Position numbers and translations under genes: made by a program. The notes below the pieces were generated by a model. It had not been told where the DNA came from, made no database searches, and worked only from the letters and a program-made list of their open reading frames with translations. From Staphylococcus lutrae (GTDB taxonomy: Bacteria > Bacillota > Bacilli > Staphylococcales > Staphylococcaceae), in contig NZ_CP020773.1 in assembly GCF_002101335.1 (NCBI RefSeq), positions 2,356,001 through 2,420,000 of the forward strand: a stretch of 64,000 nucleotides of DNA, written 5' to 3'. Positions 2,781-63,854 of this stretch are shown here, piece by piece (position 1 is the stretch's first letter; each line of letters opens with the position of its first letter).

Positions 2781-5486
2781 ATGGCTTCAAATTTAAAAGA
2801 ACAAGCAAAAAAGTCATTCCAACTTAACGGTAAGCATTTAACATACTATGATTTGAATACTTTAGAAGAACAAGGCTATACAACAATCAGTCGCTTACCC
2901 TACTCAATCCGTGTATTACTTGAATCGGTTTTACGTCAAGAAGATGGTTTTGTGATTACGGACGATCATATTAAAGCACTTTCTACTTTTGGTAAAGAAA
3001 ACGAAAAAGGTGAAGTGCCATTTAAACCATCTCGTGTTATTTTACAAGACTTTACAGGTGTGCCGGCAGTTGTTGACCTTGCATCTCTACGTAAAGCGAT
3101 GGATGATGTAGGTGGAGATTTATCAAAAATCAATCCTGAAGTACCGGTTGATTTAGTCATTGACCACTCTGTACAAGTCGATAGTTATGCGAATCCAGAA
3201 GCATTAGAGCGCAATATGAAATTGGAATTTGAACGTAACTATGAGCGTTATCAATTTTTAAACTGGGCGACGAAAGCGTTTGATAATTACAACGCAGTGC
3301 CACCAGCAACTGGAATTGTGCACCAAGTGAACTTAGAGTATTTAGCGAATGTTGTCCATGTTCGTGAAGAAAATGGTGAACAAGTTGCATTCCCAGACAC
3401 ATTAGTGGGGACGGACTCTCATACAACAATGATTAACGGTCTCGGTGTATTAGGCTGGGGTGTGGGTGGTATTGAAGCTGAAGCAGGTATGCTCGGTCAA
3501 CCTTCATATTTCCCAATTCCAGAAGTTATTGGTGTTCGTTTAACAAATGAGTTGCCTCAAGGTGCAAATGCCACTGACTTGGCTTTACGTGTGACAGAAT
3601 TGTTACGTAAAAAAGGTGTTGTTGGTAAATTTGTTGAATTTTTTGGTCCAGGCGTGGATAAATTACCGCTTGCAGACCGTGCAACAATTGCAAATATGGC
3701 GCCTGAATATGGGGCAACATGTGGTTTCTTCCCAGTCGATGATGAAACATTAAAATATTTACGTTTGACAGGTCGCTCACCAGAGCATATTGAAATCGTT
3801 GAAGCATATTTGAAACAAAATCACTTATTCTTTGATGTGAATGAAGAGCCAAATTATACAGATGTGGTTGACCTCGATCTATCAACTGTAGAAGCTTCAT
3901 TATCTGGTCCGAAACGACCACAAGATTTAATTTTCTTGAGCGATATGAAAAAAGCATTCCAAAAATCAGTGACTGCACCAGCGGGCAACCAAGGTCACGG
4001 TTTAGATAAATCGGAATTTGATAAAAAAGCAACGATAAACTTTAAAGATGGCACAACAACTGAAATGACAACGGGTGATATTGCGATTGCAGCGATTACG
4101 TCTTGTACGAATACATCCAATCCGTATGTGATGTTAGGTGCAGGCTTATTAGCGAAAAAAGCAGTGGAAAAAGGTTTGACAGTGCCATCATATGTTAAAA
4201 CATCACTTGCACCTGGTTCAAAAGTGGTAACAGGTTACTTACGTGATTCTGGTTTACAAACTTATTTAGACCAATTAGGTTTCAACTTAGTAGGATATGG
4301 TTGTACAACTTGTATCGGTAACTCAGGGCCGTTATTAGAAGAAATTGAAAAAGCAATTGCAGAAGAGGATTTATTGGTGACTTCTGTGTTATCCGGTAAC
4401 CGTAACTTTGAAGGCCGTATTCATCCACTAGTGAAAGCGAATTACTTGGCATCACCACCACTTGTTGTGGCTTATGCATTAGCAGGCACTGTAGATATCG
4501 ATTTGCATGCTGAAGCATTAGGTCAAGATAAACAAGGTCAAGATGTCTTCTTAAAAGATATTTGGCCATCAATTCAAGAAGTGGCTGATGCCGTAGACAG
4601 CGTGGTCACACCAGAGTTATTTAAAGAAGAATATAAGAGCGTGTACGATAACAATGAATTATGGAATCAAATCGATACGACTGATCAACCGTTGTATGAT
4701 TTTAATCCTGAATCGACATATATTCAAAATCCAACGTTCTTCCAAGGTTTATCAAAAGAACCAAGTGAAATCCAACCTTTATCAGGATTACGCATTATGG
4801 GTAAATTTGGTGATTCAGTGACAACGGATCATATTTCTCCAGCGGGGGCTATCGGTAAAGATACGCCAGCAGGTCGCTATTTAAGTGATAATGGTGTGTC
4901 TCCACGGGACTTTAACTCTTATGGATCACGTCGTGGTAACCATGAAGTGATGGTTCGTGGTACATTTGCTAATATTCGCATTAAAAACCAACTTGCACCG
5001 GGGACAGAAGGTGGATTTACAACGTATTGGCCAACAGGTGAAGTGATGCCGATTTTCGATGCAGCAATGAAATACAAAGCTGATGGAACAGGTTTAGTTG
5101 TGTTAGCGGGTAATGACTATGGTATGGGTTCATCTCGTGACTGGGCAGCAAAAGGGACAAACTTATTAGGTGTCAAAACAGTCATTGCTCAAAGTTATGA
5201 GCGTATCCATCGCTCCAACCTCGTGATGATGGGTGTGTTACCTTTACAATTTAAAGCAGGTGAATCTGCTGACACATTAGGTTTAGATGGGAAAGAAACG
5301 ATTGTTGTACAAATTGATGCCTCTGTGCAACCGGGCGATACGGTGAAAGTTTCAGCGACAAAAGAAGATGGCACAGTCATTGAATTTGACGCGATTGCAC
5401 GTTTTGATTCAAATGTGGAAATTGATTACTATCGTCATGGTGGTATTTTACAACTTGTATTGCGTAAAAAGTTAGCAACACAATAA
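2781..5486 (+). CDS. acnA: Aconitate hydratase (aconitase A)
   Basis: 901-residue aconitase/IRP1-type enzyme of the TCA cycle that isomerises citrate to isocitrate through a [4Fe-4S] cluster; cytosolic. The cluster ligands are visible as SCTNTSNP (about residues 443-450) and [12 protein letters not shown] (about 509-520). The swivel domain carries [13 protein letters not shown] (about 680-692), [13 protein letters not shown] and the substrate-binding [16 protein letters not shown] (about 777-792). Length matches S. aureus AcnA/CitB (901). Monocistronic, closed by a hairpin at 5513-5549. A G-rich ribosome-binding site overlaps the predicted pairing site of the Fur-controlled RNA at 61.9 kb, which suggests iron-responsive translational control of this iron-sulfur enzyme (inference). 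Confidence 0.98.
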
Positions 5487-39526: not shown

Positions 39527-39551
39527 GAAATGCATAATAATTGAATAGTTA

Positions 39552-39726
39552 CTGATGAGGCGCATCAATCATAAGTAGATATATAGAAGTCATGTCTGCA
39601 AGCATGATATATCGAAAGGGTGAGATGCCGAAATGAACAGTATTGCAGTTACGCGTTCGTTGGATTCTATGGTTAAGAGCTGAGAATCTGTCATTATTGT
39701 TAAAATAATGGAGTGCATCACTTGTA
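39552..39726 (+). ncRNA. Lysine riboswitch (L-box)
   Basis: Conserved L-box blocks occur in order: GATGAGGCGCATC...AAGTA at the 5' end, CGAAAGGGTGAGATGCCGAAATG in the middle (as GAAAGGG and GCCGAAA), and TGGAGTGCATCA at the 3' end, closing P1 (TGATG/CATCA). The layout matches the B. subtilis lysC leader. ACTTGT (39720-39725) can pair with ACAAGT (39737-39742), an antiterminator that excludes the terminator below. Lysine binding should stabilise P1 and cause termination. Here it precedes asd directly, not lysC. Confidence 0.93.
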
Positions 39727-59745: not shown

Positions 59746-61113
59746 TCACAAAGTGGAATCAAAGCTGATTGTGAAAGTTGTAAAATGTCCGACTTCACTT
59801 TCAACTGAAATCCGACCATGATAGAGTTTTACGATTTTATGTGCGATGGACAGACCGAGTCCATTTCCGCCTTGTTGTCGTGAACGAGATTTATCGACTC
59901 GATAGAAGCGGTCAAAAATATGTTCTTGGTCAGCTTGTGGAATGCCCATACCTTGATCCGTAATGGTAATGATGACTTGATTATTAATCAACTTGGTCGT
60001 AATCGTGATGTGTTTGTTTTGCGTATCGTATTTAATTGCATTGTCTAGAAAGATTAATAATATTTGTTCCAAATGAAATGAATTAATAACTAAGTTGATA
60101 CAATTTTGATTTGTGGAAAAATCAAAATGATAGTCCGGATGAATCTGTTGTAACGCATGAATACGATTTTTAATTTCCTCATTTACATTCACTTTTTCAG
60201 TTTGATTTTCAGTTGTTCTAGAATCATCTTTTGTTAGAAGTAACAACTCTTCAACAAGTTTTGTGATTCGGTTCATCTCTTCAATTGAAATGTTAAGAGA
60301 TTCTTCTAAAATATCAGGATCTTTCTTCCCCCATCGATGAATGAGGTTTAAATGACCTTGAATAATTTGTAAAGGTGTCCGTAATTCATGGGATGCATCT
60401 TCAACAAATTGACGTTGTTGGTTGAATGAATTTTCAAGTTTAACCATCATGTTATTAAACGTATCAATGAGGGCATCCGTTTCTTCATAATTTGTTGGCA
60501 CTTCGAGTTTTTCTTGGAAGCCATTACGTCGAATCTGGGTCATTTTTTCAGTAATGATATTAATGGGCTGTGTAATTTGAGAAGAAAAGAAATAGCTGAG
60601 TGACGCAGTAACAAATAAGGCAATCAATCCAAATGTCAGTGCAAGATACGTAATAAAGTTAAGCAAATCGTCGTAAACATCTAATGAATGGACTACGGTA
60701 GCATATCCCTTAAAATAAGGGGTGTTGACAGGACTAGAGACGATAATAAATGATCCGGAATCTGTGCGAAGTATTTTGATATTACGTGTCTCGTATGCAT
60801 GAAAGGGTGGTGTATACTTTAAATTAGTGGTGTTAACGTTTTCAAAGATTTTAGAGCCTTTTTCGTCGTATAAAATCACTTTTTGATAATTGTCAATGAC
60901 TGAACTGAATTCAAGCGCTGTAATATGTTTGACTGGCTTGGTTTCAAGCAAATTATACAAATCGTCAGCGCTGCGTTCTGCTTTTTCAAATTCATTTTGC
61001 TTTAACAAGCTACTAATTGCATAAATAATGAGTAAACAAAAGATGAAAATGATTAAAAAAGTAATTAAAGTGGTTACAAAAGTCCACTTTGTTTTTAATG
61101 TTGATTGTTTCAT
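59746..61113 (-). CDS. arlS: Sensor histidine kinase ArlS
   Basis: 455-residue membrane kinase. TM1 (about 12-36), an extracellular sensor region (about 37-150), TM2 (about 153-175), a HAMP linker (about 178-230), the H box [13 protein letters not shown] with His242, and the ATPase domain (LDNAIKYD as the N box; [35 protein letters not shown]) are all present. It overlaps arlR by four bases. ArlRS controls adhesion, autolysis and many surface proteins in S. aureus. It could therefore influence the adhesin in this window (inference). Confidence 0.96.
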
Positions 61114-61787
61114 TGGCGAATCACATAACCTACGCCACGGACAGTTTCAATCAGTTTTTGTTTGTCGATGCGCTTCAATTTATTGCGTAAATATCGAATG
61201 TAAACATCAACGACATTTGTTTCCACTTCTGACTCGTATCCCCATACGTGGTCGAGTATTTGCTCTCTGTGTAAAACACGGTTTTTATTTTCAGCAAGTA
61301 ATAATAATAAATCAAATTCGGTTTTAGTTAACTCCAAAGTATCATTTTGATATGTGACATTGAATGCATTTTTATCAATTTTTATGCCATCTATTTCAAC
61401 AACATTAGCGAGAGCGGCATGTTCATCTGTATAGCGGCGAATTAATGCGCGACTTCTTGCTAAAAGTTCTTCAATTTCAAAAGGTTTAACAATATAATCA
61501 TCTGCGCCATTATCTAAACCCGTGACCTTGTCATAGATTTCTCCTTTCGCTGTAATCATAATAATGGGTGTATCTTTTTGCGTTCGCAATCGTTTACATA
61601 CTTCTAAACCATCCATTTCAGGCAACATTAAATCAAGTAAAATGAGATCGAAATCATGTTGTAATGCACGATTTAAACCTGTGATGCCATCATATCTGAC
61701 TTCAACATCATAATTTTCATGTTTAAATTCAAGTTCGATAAAACGTGCTAAGTTTTGTTCATCTTCTATTATGAGTACTTTTTTCAT
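61110..61787 (-). CDS. arlR: Response regulator ArlR (OmpR family)
   Basis: 225-residue regulator. The receiver domain has the acidic pair IEDE (7-10), phospho-acceptor Asp52 in [13 protein letters not shown] and Lys in IVKPFEIEE. The C-terminal winged helix (about 125-225) has [32 protein letters not shown] (split: [31 protein letters not shown]). The frame extends eight codons upstream, but GAGGTGG overlaps that stretch and the ATG at 61787 gives [16 protein letters not shown]. Operon arlR-arlS reads leftward, away from the small RNA gene. Confidence 0.96.
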
Positions 61788-61862
61788 ATTTGCCACCTCA
61801 GTCATAATCATATGATAAAAATTAAAAACACGAAAGTTTTTTAAAAAATTTCCTGTTTTTAA

Positions 61863-61890
61863 TTGACAATAATTCTCAATACGTTATAAT
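61863..61890 (+). promoter_or_regulatory. Strong promoter of the small RNA gene
   Basis: TTGACA (61863-61868), 16-base spacer and TATAAT (61885-61890): both hexamers are perfect matches to the vegetative consensus. It points away from arlR, towards a region with no coding frame. Confidence 0.88.
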
Positions 61891-61910
61891 GTAATTGAAA
61901 ATGATTATCA
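61864..61910. promoter_or_regulatory. Two Fur-box-like operators around the small RNA promoter
   Basis: TGAAAATGATTATCA (61896-61910) matches the 15-base Fur core TGATAATGATTATCA at 14 positions and covers the likely start site. TGACAATAATTCTCA (61864-61878) matches at 12 and covers the -35 hexamer. Fur with iron bound at both would block transcription, so the RNA should appear under iron limitation. Confidence 0.88.
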
Positions 61911-62048
61911 ATCCCAACGACCCCCCACTACAATTCGTTAACATGATTGAGTCATTTTCAAGAATATCCCCTTTTATATGCCCGTATAAAAATTCGTTGA
62001 TATTAAACGTTAAATAAAAGCCGTCGCATCATTGCGGCGGCTTTTCGC
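61897..62048 (+). ncRNA. isrR: Fur-controlled small RNA, putative IsrR homologue
   Basis: About 150 nt from a start seven bases after TATAAT to the hairpin at 62016-62045. No frame with a ribosome-binding site is present. Three C-rich stretches are visible: CCCAACGACCCCCC (61913-61926), ATCCCC (61966-61971) and GCCC (61980-61983), as expected of an RNA that blocks Shine-Dalgarno sequences. Place (between arlR and the PAP2 gene), Fur boxes and C-rich regions fit S. aureus IsrR as I recall it (about 174 nt, iron-sparing). Segment 61962-61974 is complementary to the acnA ribosome-binding site, and 61973-61983 to that of odhB. Expression and ends are predicted, not shown. Confidence 0.87.
62016..62045. 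terminator. Terminator of the small RNA (bidirectional)
   Basis: AAAAGCCGTCGCA pairs with TGCGGCGGCTTTT (one G-U) over the tetraloop TCAT. On the minus strand the T run is longer (TTTTATTT), so it may also end the PAP2 transcript, 110 bases after that gene. Confidence 0.9.
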
Positions 62049-62154: not shown

Positions 62155-62772
62155 TTATTCTAATCCGAGTGGACGACGCAAGATAAGTTGCGTAAGTACA
62201 ATACAAAACAGTCCGCCTATTATTCCAGCGATTATGTCAGTCGGATAATGGACACCAAGATATACACGCGAGCTAGAAATTAAAATAATGAATACCACGC
62301 ATAAAGTCATTACAACTGTTTTGGATTTGCCTTTTAAAATTCGGTGTGCAATGTAAATCAAACTACCGAAAAAGGCAGTAGAGCCCATTGCGTGACCACT
62401 CGGAAAACTAAACCCTGAAATATCGATTAAACGTAATAATGTTGGTCTTTCACGATCAAAGATATTTTTTAAAATGGGATTAGAGACACCGGAGAGTATC
62501 ATTGTTAAAGCCAGAAACAGTGCTTCGACTTTATATCGATAGAGCAACAAAAGTGCAACCATGATTAAAGATAAGGTAATCATTGCCCACACTTCACCAA
62601 TTTGAGTCGCACCAAAAAAGATTGAAGTGCTAATGAAACTTTCCGATGAATAAATAAAATTGTATACTTCGTTATCAATCCATTTGCCGATCCGAGATTC
62701 ATGAAACATCGCTATTATCGAAAAAATGAGTGTAAAAACTAATAATAGTGATATTCTTTTCCAATGTGACAT
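62155..62772 (-). CDS. PAP2-family membrane phosphatase (PgpB-like)
   Basis: 205-residue membrane phosphatase with six hydrophobic segments. The three PAP2 motifs are intact: KNIFDRERP (about 104-112), FPSGHA (about 123-128) and SRVYLGVHYPTD (about 167-178), which hold the catalytic His pair. Likely substrates are phosphatidylglycerol phosphate or undecaprenyl pyrophosphate; sequence alone cannot decide. It lies 11 bases after murG, so lipid-carrier recycling would suit the context (inference). Confidence 0.9.
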   Translation of the reverse strand: MSHWKRISLLLVFTLIFSIIAMFHESRIGKWIDNEVYNFIYSSESFISTSIFFGATQIGEVWAMITLSLIMVALLLLYRYKVEALFLALTMILSGVSNPILKNIFDRERPTLLRLIDISGFSFPSGHAMGSTAFFGSLIYIAHRILKGKSKTVVMTLCVVFIILISSSRVYLGVHYPTDIIAGIIGGLFCIVLTQLILRRPLGLE

Positions 62773-62783
62773 ACATCATCCCC

Positions 62784-63854
62784 CTAATGCAGTGCATCCT
62801 TTATCACTTTTTCAAGTAAATCTTGACGTGTGAAACTTTCGGTAAAACATGCCATATTTTTAACATATTGGCGTCTGTTTTGTTCGATTTCTTGCAATGC
62901 AAGCATCAACGATTCTTGAGTTAATTCTGATTCGTTGAGCATTTTAGCATAACCTTGTTTTTCGAAATATCGAGCGTTATCAATCTGATCACCACGAGAT
63001 TGATCAAGACCAAGCGGAATTAATAACATTGGAATGTGTAAAGTTAGAAACTCGTATATCGCATTGGCCCCCGCTCTAGAAACAACCGTATCAGTTATCG
63101 CTAATAAATGTGTAAGTTCCTCTTTTACAAATTCAAATTGGACATATCCCTCATGTTGAATCGTCTGATCTTGTAAGTGTTTTCCAGTGAGATGGATGAT
63201 TTGGTATGTCTCTAGTAATTCAGTTAAATGGCGACGAATGGCTTCATTTATTTTTAAACTCCCCATGCTTCCGCCCATGACGAGCAGCACCTTTTTCTTT
63301 GGAGAGAAACCAGTGAGTTCAAATCCTTTTTGTCGATCACCATGTTTTAAATCTTCACGTATCGTTGCACCTATAAAATCTGATTTTTCTTTTGGCACAT
63401 ATTTTAATGTGTCTTCGAATGTCGTATATAACCGTTGAGCAAATTTAATGGCAATCTTATTAGCTAAACCGGGTGTTAAATCCGATTCATGAACAATCGT
63501 TGGAATTTTTAATGTTTTGGCTGCAAGAATAACTGGAACAGAAACGAATCCGCCTTTTGAAAAAACAATATCTGGACGTTCACGTTTTAACACTTTTCGT
63601 GCATCTGCAATGCCTTTAAGCACTTTAAAAATATCTTTAACGTTTTCAAAAGAAAGATAGCGACGTAATTTACCACTTGAAATCGGATAATAAGAAATCT
63701 CTGGAAGTTGAGACGTCACCATTTCTCGTTCTATTCCTTGTTTGGAACCGATATAAAAAGCTTCATGTCCTTGCTCTATTGCTGTAGGAATTAAACTTAA
63801 ATTCACCGATACATGTCCAACAGTACCGCCACCTGTAAACGCAATTTTTACCAT
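62784..63854 (-). CDS. murG: UDP-GlcNAc:lipid I N-acetylglucosaminyltransferase MurG
   Basis: 356-residue GT-B glycosyltransferase that turns lipid I into lipid II at the inner face of the membrane. The N-terminal glycine motif FTGGGTVGHVSVNLSL is the staphylococcal form of the usual GGTGGHxxPAL region. SKGGFVSVPVILAA and HESDLTPGLANKIA follow, then the donor-binding LLVMGGSMGSLKINEAI (about 190-206) and VVSRAGANAIYEFL (about 256-269). GAGGG ribosome-binding site. Upstream neighbour is a GNAT gene nine bases away, so a GNAT-murG-PAP2 operon is likely. Confidence 0.96.
   Translation of the reverse strand: MVKIAFTGGGTVGHVSVNLSLIPTAIEQGHEAFYIGSKQGIEREMVTSQLPEISYYPISSGKLRRYLSFENVKDIFKVLKGIADARKVLKRERPDIVFSKGGFVSVPVILAAKTLKIPTIVHESDLTPGLANKIAIKFAQRLYTTFEDTLKYVPKEKSDFIGATIREDLKHGDRQKGFELTGFSPKKKVLLVMGGSMGSLKINEAIRRHLTELLETYQIIHLTGKHLQDQTIQHEGYVQFEFVKEELTHLLAITDTVVSRAGANAIYEFLTLHIPMLLIPLGLDQSRGDQIDNARYFEKQGYAKMLNESELTQESLMLALQEIEQNRRQYVKNMACFTESFTRQDLLEKVIKDALH

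Follow-up and report, generated by a model that had tools for sequence, protein, structure and literature searches.

We identified the gene of the small RNA IsrR in Staphylococcus lutrae (isrR, positions 61863-62045, + strand, of the 64,000-nucleotide stretch analysed here, hereafter the window), and found isrR-like units at the same place in three further genera. Taken together, these suggest that IsrR is probably a family of the Staphylococcales seated between the PAP2 phosphatase gene and arlR, which has switched strand, was duplicated in Mammaliicoccus, has aconitase as its oldest job, and changed its seed together with the Shine-Dalgarno (SD) flank of acnA. The S. lutrae copy alone carries little weight, as it belongs to a published family and looks as expected. 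The specialist interest lies in the likely order-wide family, the strand change, the tandem copies and the matched seed differences: if the reading is true, the family is deep, and an iron-sparing RNA can shift strand, copy number and seed and yet retain one target. The matched differences between seed and acnA ribosome site would also allow target conservation to be tested directly in other genera than that of the pathogen S. aureus.

The isrR promoter (61863-61890, +) matches the consensus at 12 of 12 positions, with TTGACA at 61863-61868, a 16-nt spacer and TATAAT at 61885-61890, just as originally predicted. It is the sole perfect promoter in the window (spacers of 15-18). When the 64 kb were dinucleotide-shuffled 60 times, four perfect promoters arose in total, and no Fur box of at least 12/14 overlapped any of them. 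Its combination with an overlapping Fur box is therefore not attributable to chance. Fur boxes were scored against the 7-1-7 sequence TGATAATnATTATCA, which we take to be the consensus. Predicted Fur box 1 (61864-61878, +; 12/14 consensus positions) overlaps the -35 hexamer, and predicted Fur box 2 (61896-61910, +; 13/14) lies at the expected transcription start and is also the 5' arm of helix H1 of the RNA. Two Fur-like boxes had been predicted with 12/15 and 14/15 matches; the boxes stand, but the count depends on the middle base. Paired boxes at a spacing of 32-33 bp were present in 73 of 74 homologous loci linked to arlR or PAP2, some of these loci being one genome fetched twice.

The IsrR (Tsr25/S596) RNA is predicted from the Rfam match and the fold to extend from 61895 to 62047 (+), about 150 nt. 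The predicted fold has an energy of -43.2 kcal/mol (z -7.88), and none of 200 shuffles folded as well. Helix H1 (61895-61961, +) is a predicted helix whose arms alignments A2 and A4 show to be conserved, and its loop holds the first C-rich region (CRR1, CCCCCC, 61921-61926, +). Compensatory changes in H1 are almost absent (1/7 pairs in A2 and 1/13 in A3), which we attribute to the 5' arm doubling as a Fur operator, and covariation was abandoned as proof of this helix. CRR2 (CCCC, 61968-61971, +), where GAAUAUCCCC is complementary to the acnA ribosome site, abuts predicted helix H2 (61972-61991, +; eight pairs), and CRR3 (CCC in GCCCG, 61981-61983, +) lies in the H2 loop, so that the C-rich stretches number three, as had been noted from the sequence. 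Downstream are a small, weak predicted helix H3 (61995-62009, +), with only two pairs in the centroid, and a predicted intrinsic terminator (62016-62045, +) with a loop of four and the anticipated stem of 13 pairs. The terminator U-run is mostly within the stem, and a consensus terminator scan gave only a weaker, shifted stem. The divergent neighbour, assigned by protein identity, is the response regulator gene arlR (61110-61811, -; likely start near 61787), whose product is 92-93% identical to the S. pseudintermedius, S. coagulans and S. intermedius proteins. On the other side lies the PAP2-family phosphatase gene pgpB (62155-62772, -; PF01569), with a product at most 88% identical to other organism-named proteins among the best 120 listed.

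Covariance searching placed this RNA in a known family. Rfam RF02578 (tsr25) matched 61887-62045 (+) over the full model (1-181 of 181) with 66.3 bits, only about 3 above the cut-off of 63. The same model matched all 84 Staphylococcus genomes, S. lutrae included; 74 of these scored above the cut-off, and none of 14 control genomes gave a match. One Staphylococcus genome had a weak second tsr25 match (L198), which was rejected as a further isrR copy, as neither arlR nor PAP2 adjoins it. In the excerpts of PMC9410917 on which we draw, S596, Tsr25 and IsrR are one RNA encoded between arlR and pgpB, confirming the adjacency to arlR given in the original prediction; S. aureus isrR is Fur-repressed through two boxes, in the promoter and just past the start; and CRR1 and CRR3 form the H1 and H2 loops, with CRR2 beside H2. 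The S. lutrae gene likewise has arlR and pgpB/PAP2 on its two sides and is read divergently from arlR, with one predicted Fur box in its promoter and one at the predicted transcription start, the order H1-H2-H3-terminator, CRR1 in the H1 loop, CRR2 abutting H2 and CRR3 in the H2 loop. Since RF02578 matches 84/84 Staphylococcus genomes and the predicted fold has the published layout, we consider the S. lutrae copy an ordinary orthologue. The Rfam match, locus, layout and C-rich regions thus support the assignment of 61863-62045 as IsrR, a known kind of gene, and with it the original prediction of a Fur-controlled small RNA between arlR and PAP2 that is the IsrR counterpart. According to the same excerpts, isrR was found in all Staphylococcus genomes screened, with S. 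pseudintermedius and S. lutrae among the sources, and the gene described here may already have been published.

Other readings of the locus were considered. The Fur boxes might mainly serve the divergent arlR, with the region between being an arlR leader and a PAP2 terminator. The short intergenic space and the distance of about 80 bp between Fur box 1 and the likely arlR start are compatible with this, but the perfect promoter is directed away from arlR and the scan gave a single promoter-like site on the minus strand, a 9/12 match inside the arlR start region. Helix H1 and the C-rich tracts are kept in homologues, and in Macrococcus the unit is inverted whole and still has promoter, boxes and C-rich tracts, which makes a service to arlR highly improbable. 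That the RNA belongs instead to another C-rich family such as RsaE/RoxS (RF01820), which shares C-rich seed motifs (PMC5826253, excerpts), merits practically no credence: apart from tsr25, RsaE alone among Rfam families matched (E up to 1) at 61863-62045, but its 21.2 bits (E 0.61) are far under the cut-off of 79 and 45 bits fewer than the tsr25 score.

The locus had also been said to contain no coding frame. Strictly, a TTG frame of 40 codons (61895-62017) does exist, beginning at the very 5' end of the RNA, and it is open in S. lutrae and four near relatives (L028, L031-L033). However, no ribosome site is visible for it, and translation over the core of 14 sequences, the window included, gave only these five open frames, seven with internal stops and two that stop near the end. 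With stops in 9/14 sequences, coding at the isrR locus is not supported, and a short peptide as its product is a very remote prospect.

We therefore return to the RNA itself, and consider it very likely that isrR of S. lutrae specifies a Fur-repressed RNA of about 150 nt whose C-rich regions block the mRNAs of iron enzymes and so spare iron. With iron present, Fur on both operators would shut the isrR promoter; on iron exhaustion Fur would depart and the RNA of about 150 nt would be made. Its C-rich regions would then pair with the G-rich SD sequences of iron-enzyme mRNAs, foremost those of aconitase, MiaB and formate dehydrogenase, and this pairing would stop translation and spare iron. Fur binding, iron induction and translational block are expected in S. 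lutrae by analogy with S. aureus, for which excerpts of the published work describe Fur repression and translational control by IsrR (PMC9410917, PMC13343841, PMC11448259, PMC11257911, PMC12607789).

The first predicted target lies in the same window. The acnA gene (2781-5486, +; TIGR01341, 1455.4 bits) has at its ribosome site and start codon (2756-2785, +) the sequence GGGGATATTC, which is perfectly complementary to GAAUAUCCCC and would form 10 perfect pairs with CRR2; only 4/2000 shuffled sites equal this. The search for targets went through individual genes and through sequence patterns. Pairing was scored as local duplex plus opening costs in the region from -60 to +35 and ranked over 136 gene starts, taken from the window and from fetched loci of the same genome; nasD, gltB2, sdh, hemA and other published targets are outside this set. 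The 136 starts were enriched in G-rich ribosome sites by the pattern searches, which makes the ranking a harder test. The genes acnA, miaB and fdhA, published targets of IsrR, are predicted partners of the S. lutrae RNA, ranking 1st, 3rd and 10th, and narG ranked 38th. Together these four gave a rank sum of 52, against 56, 70, 113, 131, 136 and 256 for six shuffled RNAs, the closest shuffle thus differing little. Two starts in the window, of genes that we take to be sucA-like and sucB-like, ranked 20th and 22nd. SucA and SucB show IsrR-dependent patterns in S. aureus in excerpts of PMC11257911. Two catalase genes ranked only 93rd and 128th; the katA IsrR site lies upstream of the ribosome site (PMC11257911, excerpts), and the scored region may partly miss a site of this type.

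The S. lutrae RNA had been predicted to be shorter than S. aureus IsrR, and it is, at a predicted length of about 150 nt rather than 174. The H1 loop and terminator region are shorter than in S. aureus, and H2 differs too, its eight pairs closing a 4-nt loop that holds CRR3. Relative to L001, which gave the best tsr25 match found, the S. lutrae RNA is missing bases in the loop of H1 and near H3 and the terminator, whereas CRR1-CRR3 are kept. The further suggestion that a shorter RNA might have a different target set was not borne out: since acnA, miaB and fdhA all rank in the top 10 for predicted pairing, shortness is no sign of other targets. A partial difference in targets may exist in S. 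lutrae, because narG and the catalases rank low and nasD, gltB2, sdh and hemA lie outside the ranked set.

A genome-wide search for the CRR2 complement before ATG found 22 places, compared with 9 for a reversed control. Seven of the 22 are plausible gene starts, acnA and fdhA included; we know of no published IsrR targets among the other five. The pattern AAAGGGGA-N3-11-ATG occurred at 23 places versus 5 for its reversed control, mostly before genes that, judged by their start peptides, are unrelated to iron, so it was not taken as evidence; only one citrate-synthase-like start stood out. Separately, a gene for a NifS-like cysteine desulfurase, named from its start peptide (L167, genome positions 1252328-1252343, -), has GGGGATAT at its ribosome site. 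Its start ranked 8th of 136 for IsrR pairing, and from this complementarity the gene is a possible further iron-sulfur target.

Outside Staphylococcus, genera were named by identity of the PAP2 protein to named records. Eight genomes were assigned to Mammaliicoccus, with one at 100% and seven at 88-91% identity to M. stepanovicii. RF02578 gave weaker matches in all eight, none over the cut-off. All eight loci (L180-L187) contain two tandem isrR-like units between arlR and PAP2, the upstream unit with H1 and CRR1 only and the downstream unit with CRR1, CRR2 and CRR3. Both units have paired Fur boxes in 7/8 loci, the second-unit boxes of L187 having decayed, and the first unit of L183 has lost its C-tract. 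One downstream copy had a fold z of -8.40.

Macrococcus was represented by 16 genomes, with PAP2 identities of 100% in nine and 90-93% in the others. RF02578 matched none of these 16, which form three genus-level groups of the family, at E <= 0.001; a laxer scan of five of the 16 Macrococcus loci gave one match (24.7 bits, E 0.22). The Macrococcus loci (L200-L215) were picked by position, without any RNA model. In 16/16 there was a shorter isrR-like unit between PAP2 and arlR, on the strand opposite to that of the Staphylococcus gene. These units have a promoter, H1, GAGUUCCCCCUCU and paired Fur boxes (10-12 of 14 positions, spaced by 32-33 bp), and measure 99-111 nt from Fur box 2 to the U-run. 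The C-tract before GCCC is present in 15/16; the exception, L201, assigned to M. lamae from its PAP2, is degenerate at this point. Two Macrococcus RNAs had fold z values of -8.09 and -6.84. A second match in one Macrococcus genome (L279) was discarded, being a Fur box only.

We built a covariance model (R1) from 18 of these sequences, six from Mammaliicoccus and 12 from Macrococcus, with no Staphylococcus row. Over 157 genomes of Staphylococcales, R1 matched 127 at E <= 0.01 and recovered isrR in 84/84 Staphylococcus, each match overlapping the RF02578 match. This recovery is an independent check of homology. R1 also matched 12 of at least 12 Salinicoccus genomes (E 1.5e-6 to 9.4e-4), the genus being named from PAP2 identities of 87-100%. 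At all 12 loci (L260-L270 and L275) the unit shares the strand of arlR and sits between that gene and PAP2, arlR being about 780 bp more distant in L264 and L265. The Salinicoccus units have one Fur box over the threshold, H1, a CRR1-like C-tract in the loop and a terminator; across the 12 loci no CRR2 was found, CRR3 was eroded and only the CRR1-like tract was clear. Having neither three clear C-rich regions nor two Fur boxes over the threshold, they represent a reduced form, and L260 had a fold z of -4.88. Macrococcus and Salinicoccus thus have the unit on the same strand as arlR, Staphylococcus and Mammaliicoccus on the opposite one, and these same-place look-alikes suggest a much older family.

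A second model (R2), with rows from all four genera, was run over 398 genomes of Bacilli and matched 41, of which 39 were inside the order. The two matches outside it (L296 and L297) were rejected, since on visual inspection both are Fur boxes that lack a C-tract and stand close to unrelated genes. In Jeotgalicoccus (7 of at least 9 genomes; L271-L274 and L276-L278) we observed a Fur-box unit that also has a C-tract hairpin and a strong terminator. Neither arlR nor a PAP2 gene was found in the Jeotgalicoccus stretches fetched, and at the four loci read for neighbours the unit stands beside a gene that is presumably glyoxalase/dioxygenase-like. Lying away from the arlR locus, this unit was not counted as IsrR; it could be a relocated relative or convergent.

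We compared acnA starts with the genomes' own RNAs in 30/36 genomes, the degenerate M. lamae being among those left out. GGGGGAAC, which is complementary to the GUUCCCCC tract in the RNAs of these two genera, was present at the acnA start in 14/15 Macrococcus and 6/6 Mammaliicoccus, so that the acnA flank in both genera matches the CRR1 tract of their own RNAs and not the Staphylococcus one. The mean longest perfect helix at acnA of S. lutrae was 10.0 with its own RNA versus 6.0-7.0 with those of other genera. For Mammaliicoccus it was 9.5 with own RNAs, 9.4 with the like-seeded Macrococcus RNAs and 7.0-7.5 with others; for Macrococcus it was 9.0 with own RNAs, 9.0 with Mammaliicoccus RNAs and 6.3-6.6 with others. 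Salinicoccus showed no real difference (7.0 own versus 6.5-6.8 foreign), and its match to acnA is weak: 311/2000 shuffled sites reach the longest helix (7).

The motifs were then counted across start contexts from the fetched loci, with identical contexts collapsed and weak ribosome sites and unrecognised acnA copies dropped. GGGGGAAC occurred in 13/14 distinct acnA contexts and 0/111 others in Macrococcus, and in 5/5 and 0/26 in Mammaliicoccus; in Salinicoccus, GGGGGCT occurred in 7/7 acnA contexts and 0/42 others. Helices of at least 9 to variable parts of the RNA arise by chance in several Macrococcus gene starts, and only the C-tract motif is specific to acnA in these sequences. The predicted seed pairs are GAAUAUCCCC/GGGGATATTC (CRR2) in S. 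lutrae and GUUCCCCC/GGGGGAAC (CRR1) in Macrococcus and Mammaliicoccus, with AGCCCCC and GGGGGCT as a possible pair in Salinicoccus. These differences represent few independent events, because genomes within a genus share ancestry and the seed comparison holds a single Staphylococcus acnA, that of S. lutrae.

As far as our searches extended, the inverted Macrococcus homologue, the Mammaliicoccus tandem copies and the reduced Salinicoccus form are new. Among open-licence papers we found none on IsrR in the sciuri group/Mammaliicoccus or on tandem or Bacillales homologues, none on a Fur-regulated small RNA in Salinicoccus and, among the matches listed, none on tsr25/IsrR in Macrococcus. Mammaliicoccus isrR is not wholly new, since the excerpts of PMC9410917 list 'S. 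stepanovicii', now Mammaliicoccus, as a source. A 2026 review describes IsrR as conserved across Staphylococcus without homology to iron RNAs of other species (PMC13343841), and Figure 3 of PMC5826253 compares S. aureus small RNAs across Firmicutes. Two functional parallels are cited in excerpts of PMC9410917. PrrF1 and PrrF2 of Pseudomonas aeruginosa are likewise Fur-repressed iron-sparing RNAs, and their tandem copies resemble the Mammaliicoccus arrangement, but according to these excerpts IsrR shares with them neither synteny nor chaperone dependency. FsrA of Bacillus subtilis is Fur-repressed with aconitase among its targets (also cited in excerpts of PMC11257911), but in the PMC9410917 excerpts it has no synteny or sequence in common with IsrR.

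Two other RNA elements were detected in the window. Rfam S414 matched 63155-63326 (+) with 68.2 bits, antisense within a murG-like gene; it also matched in L187 and L200, and coding conservation may explain these matches. An ordinary lysine riboswitch (39547-39726, +; 104.9 bits) precedes a gene that we take to be aspartate-semialdehyde-dehydrogenase-like.
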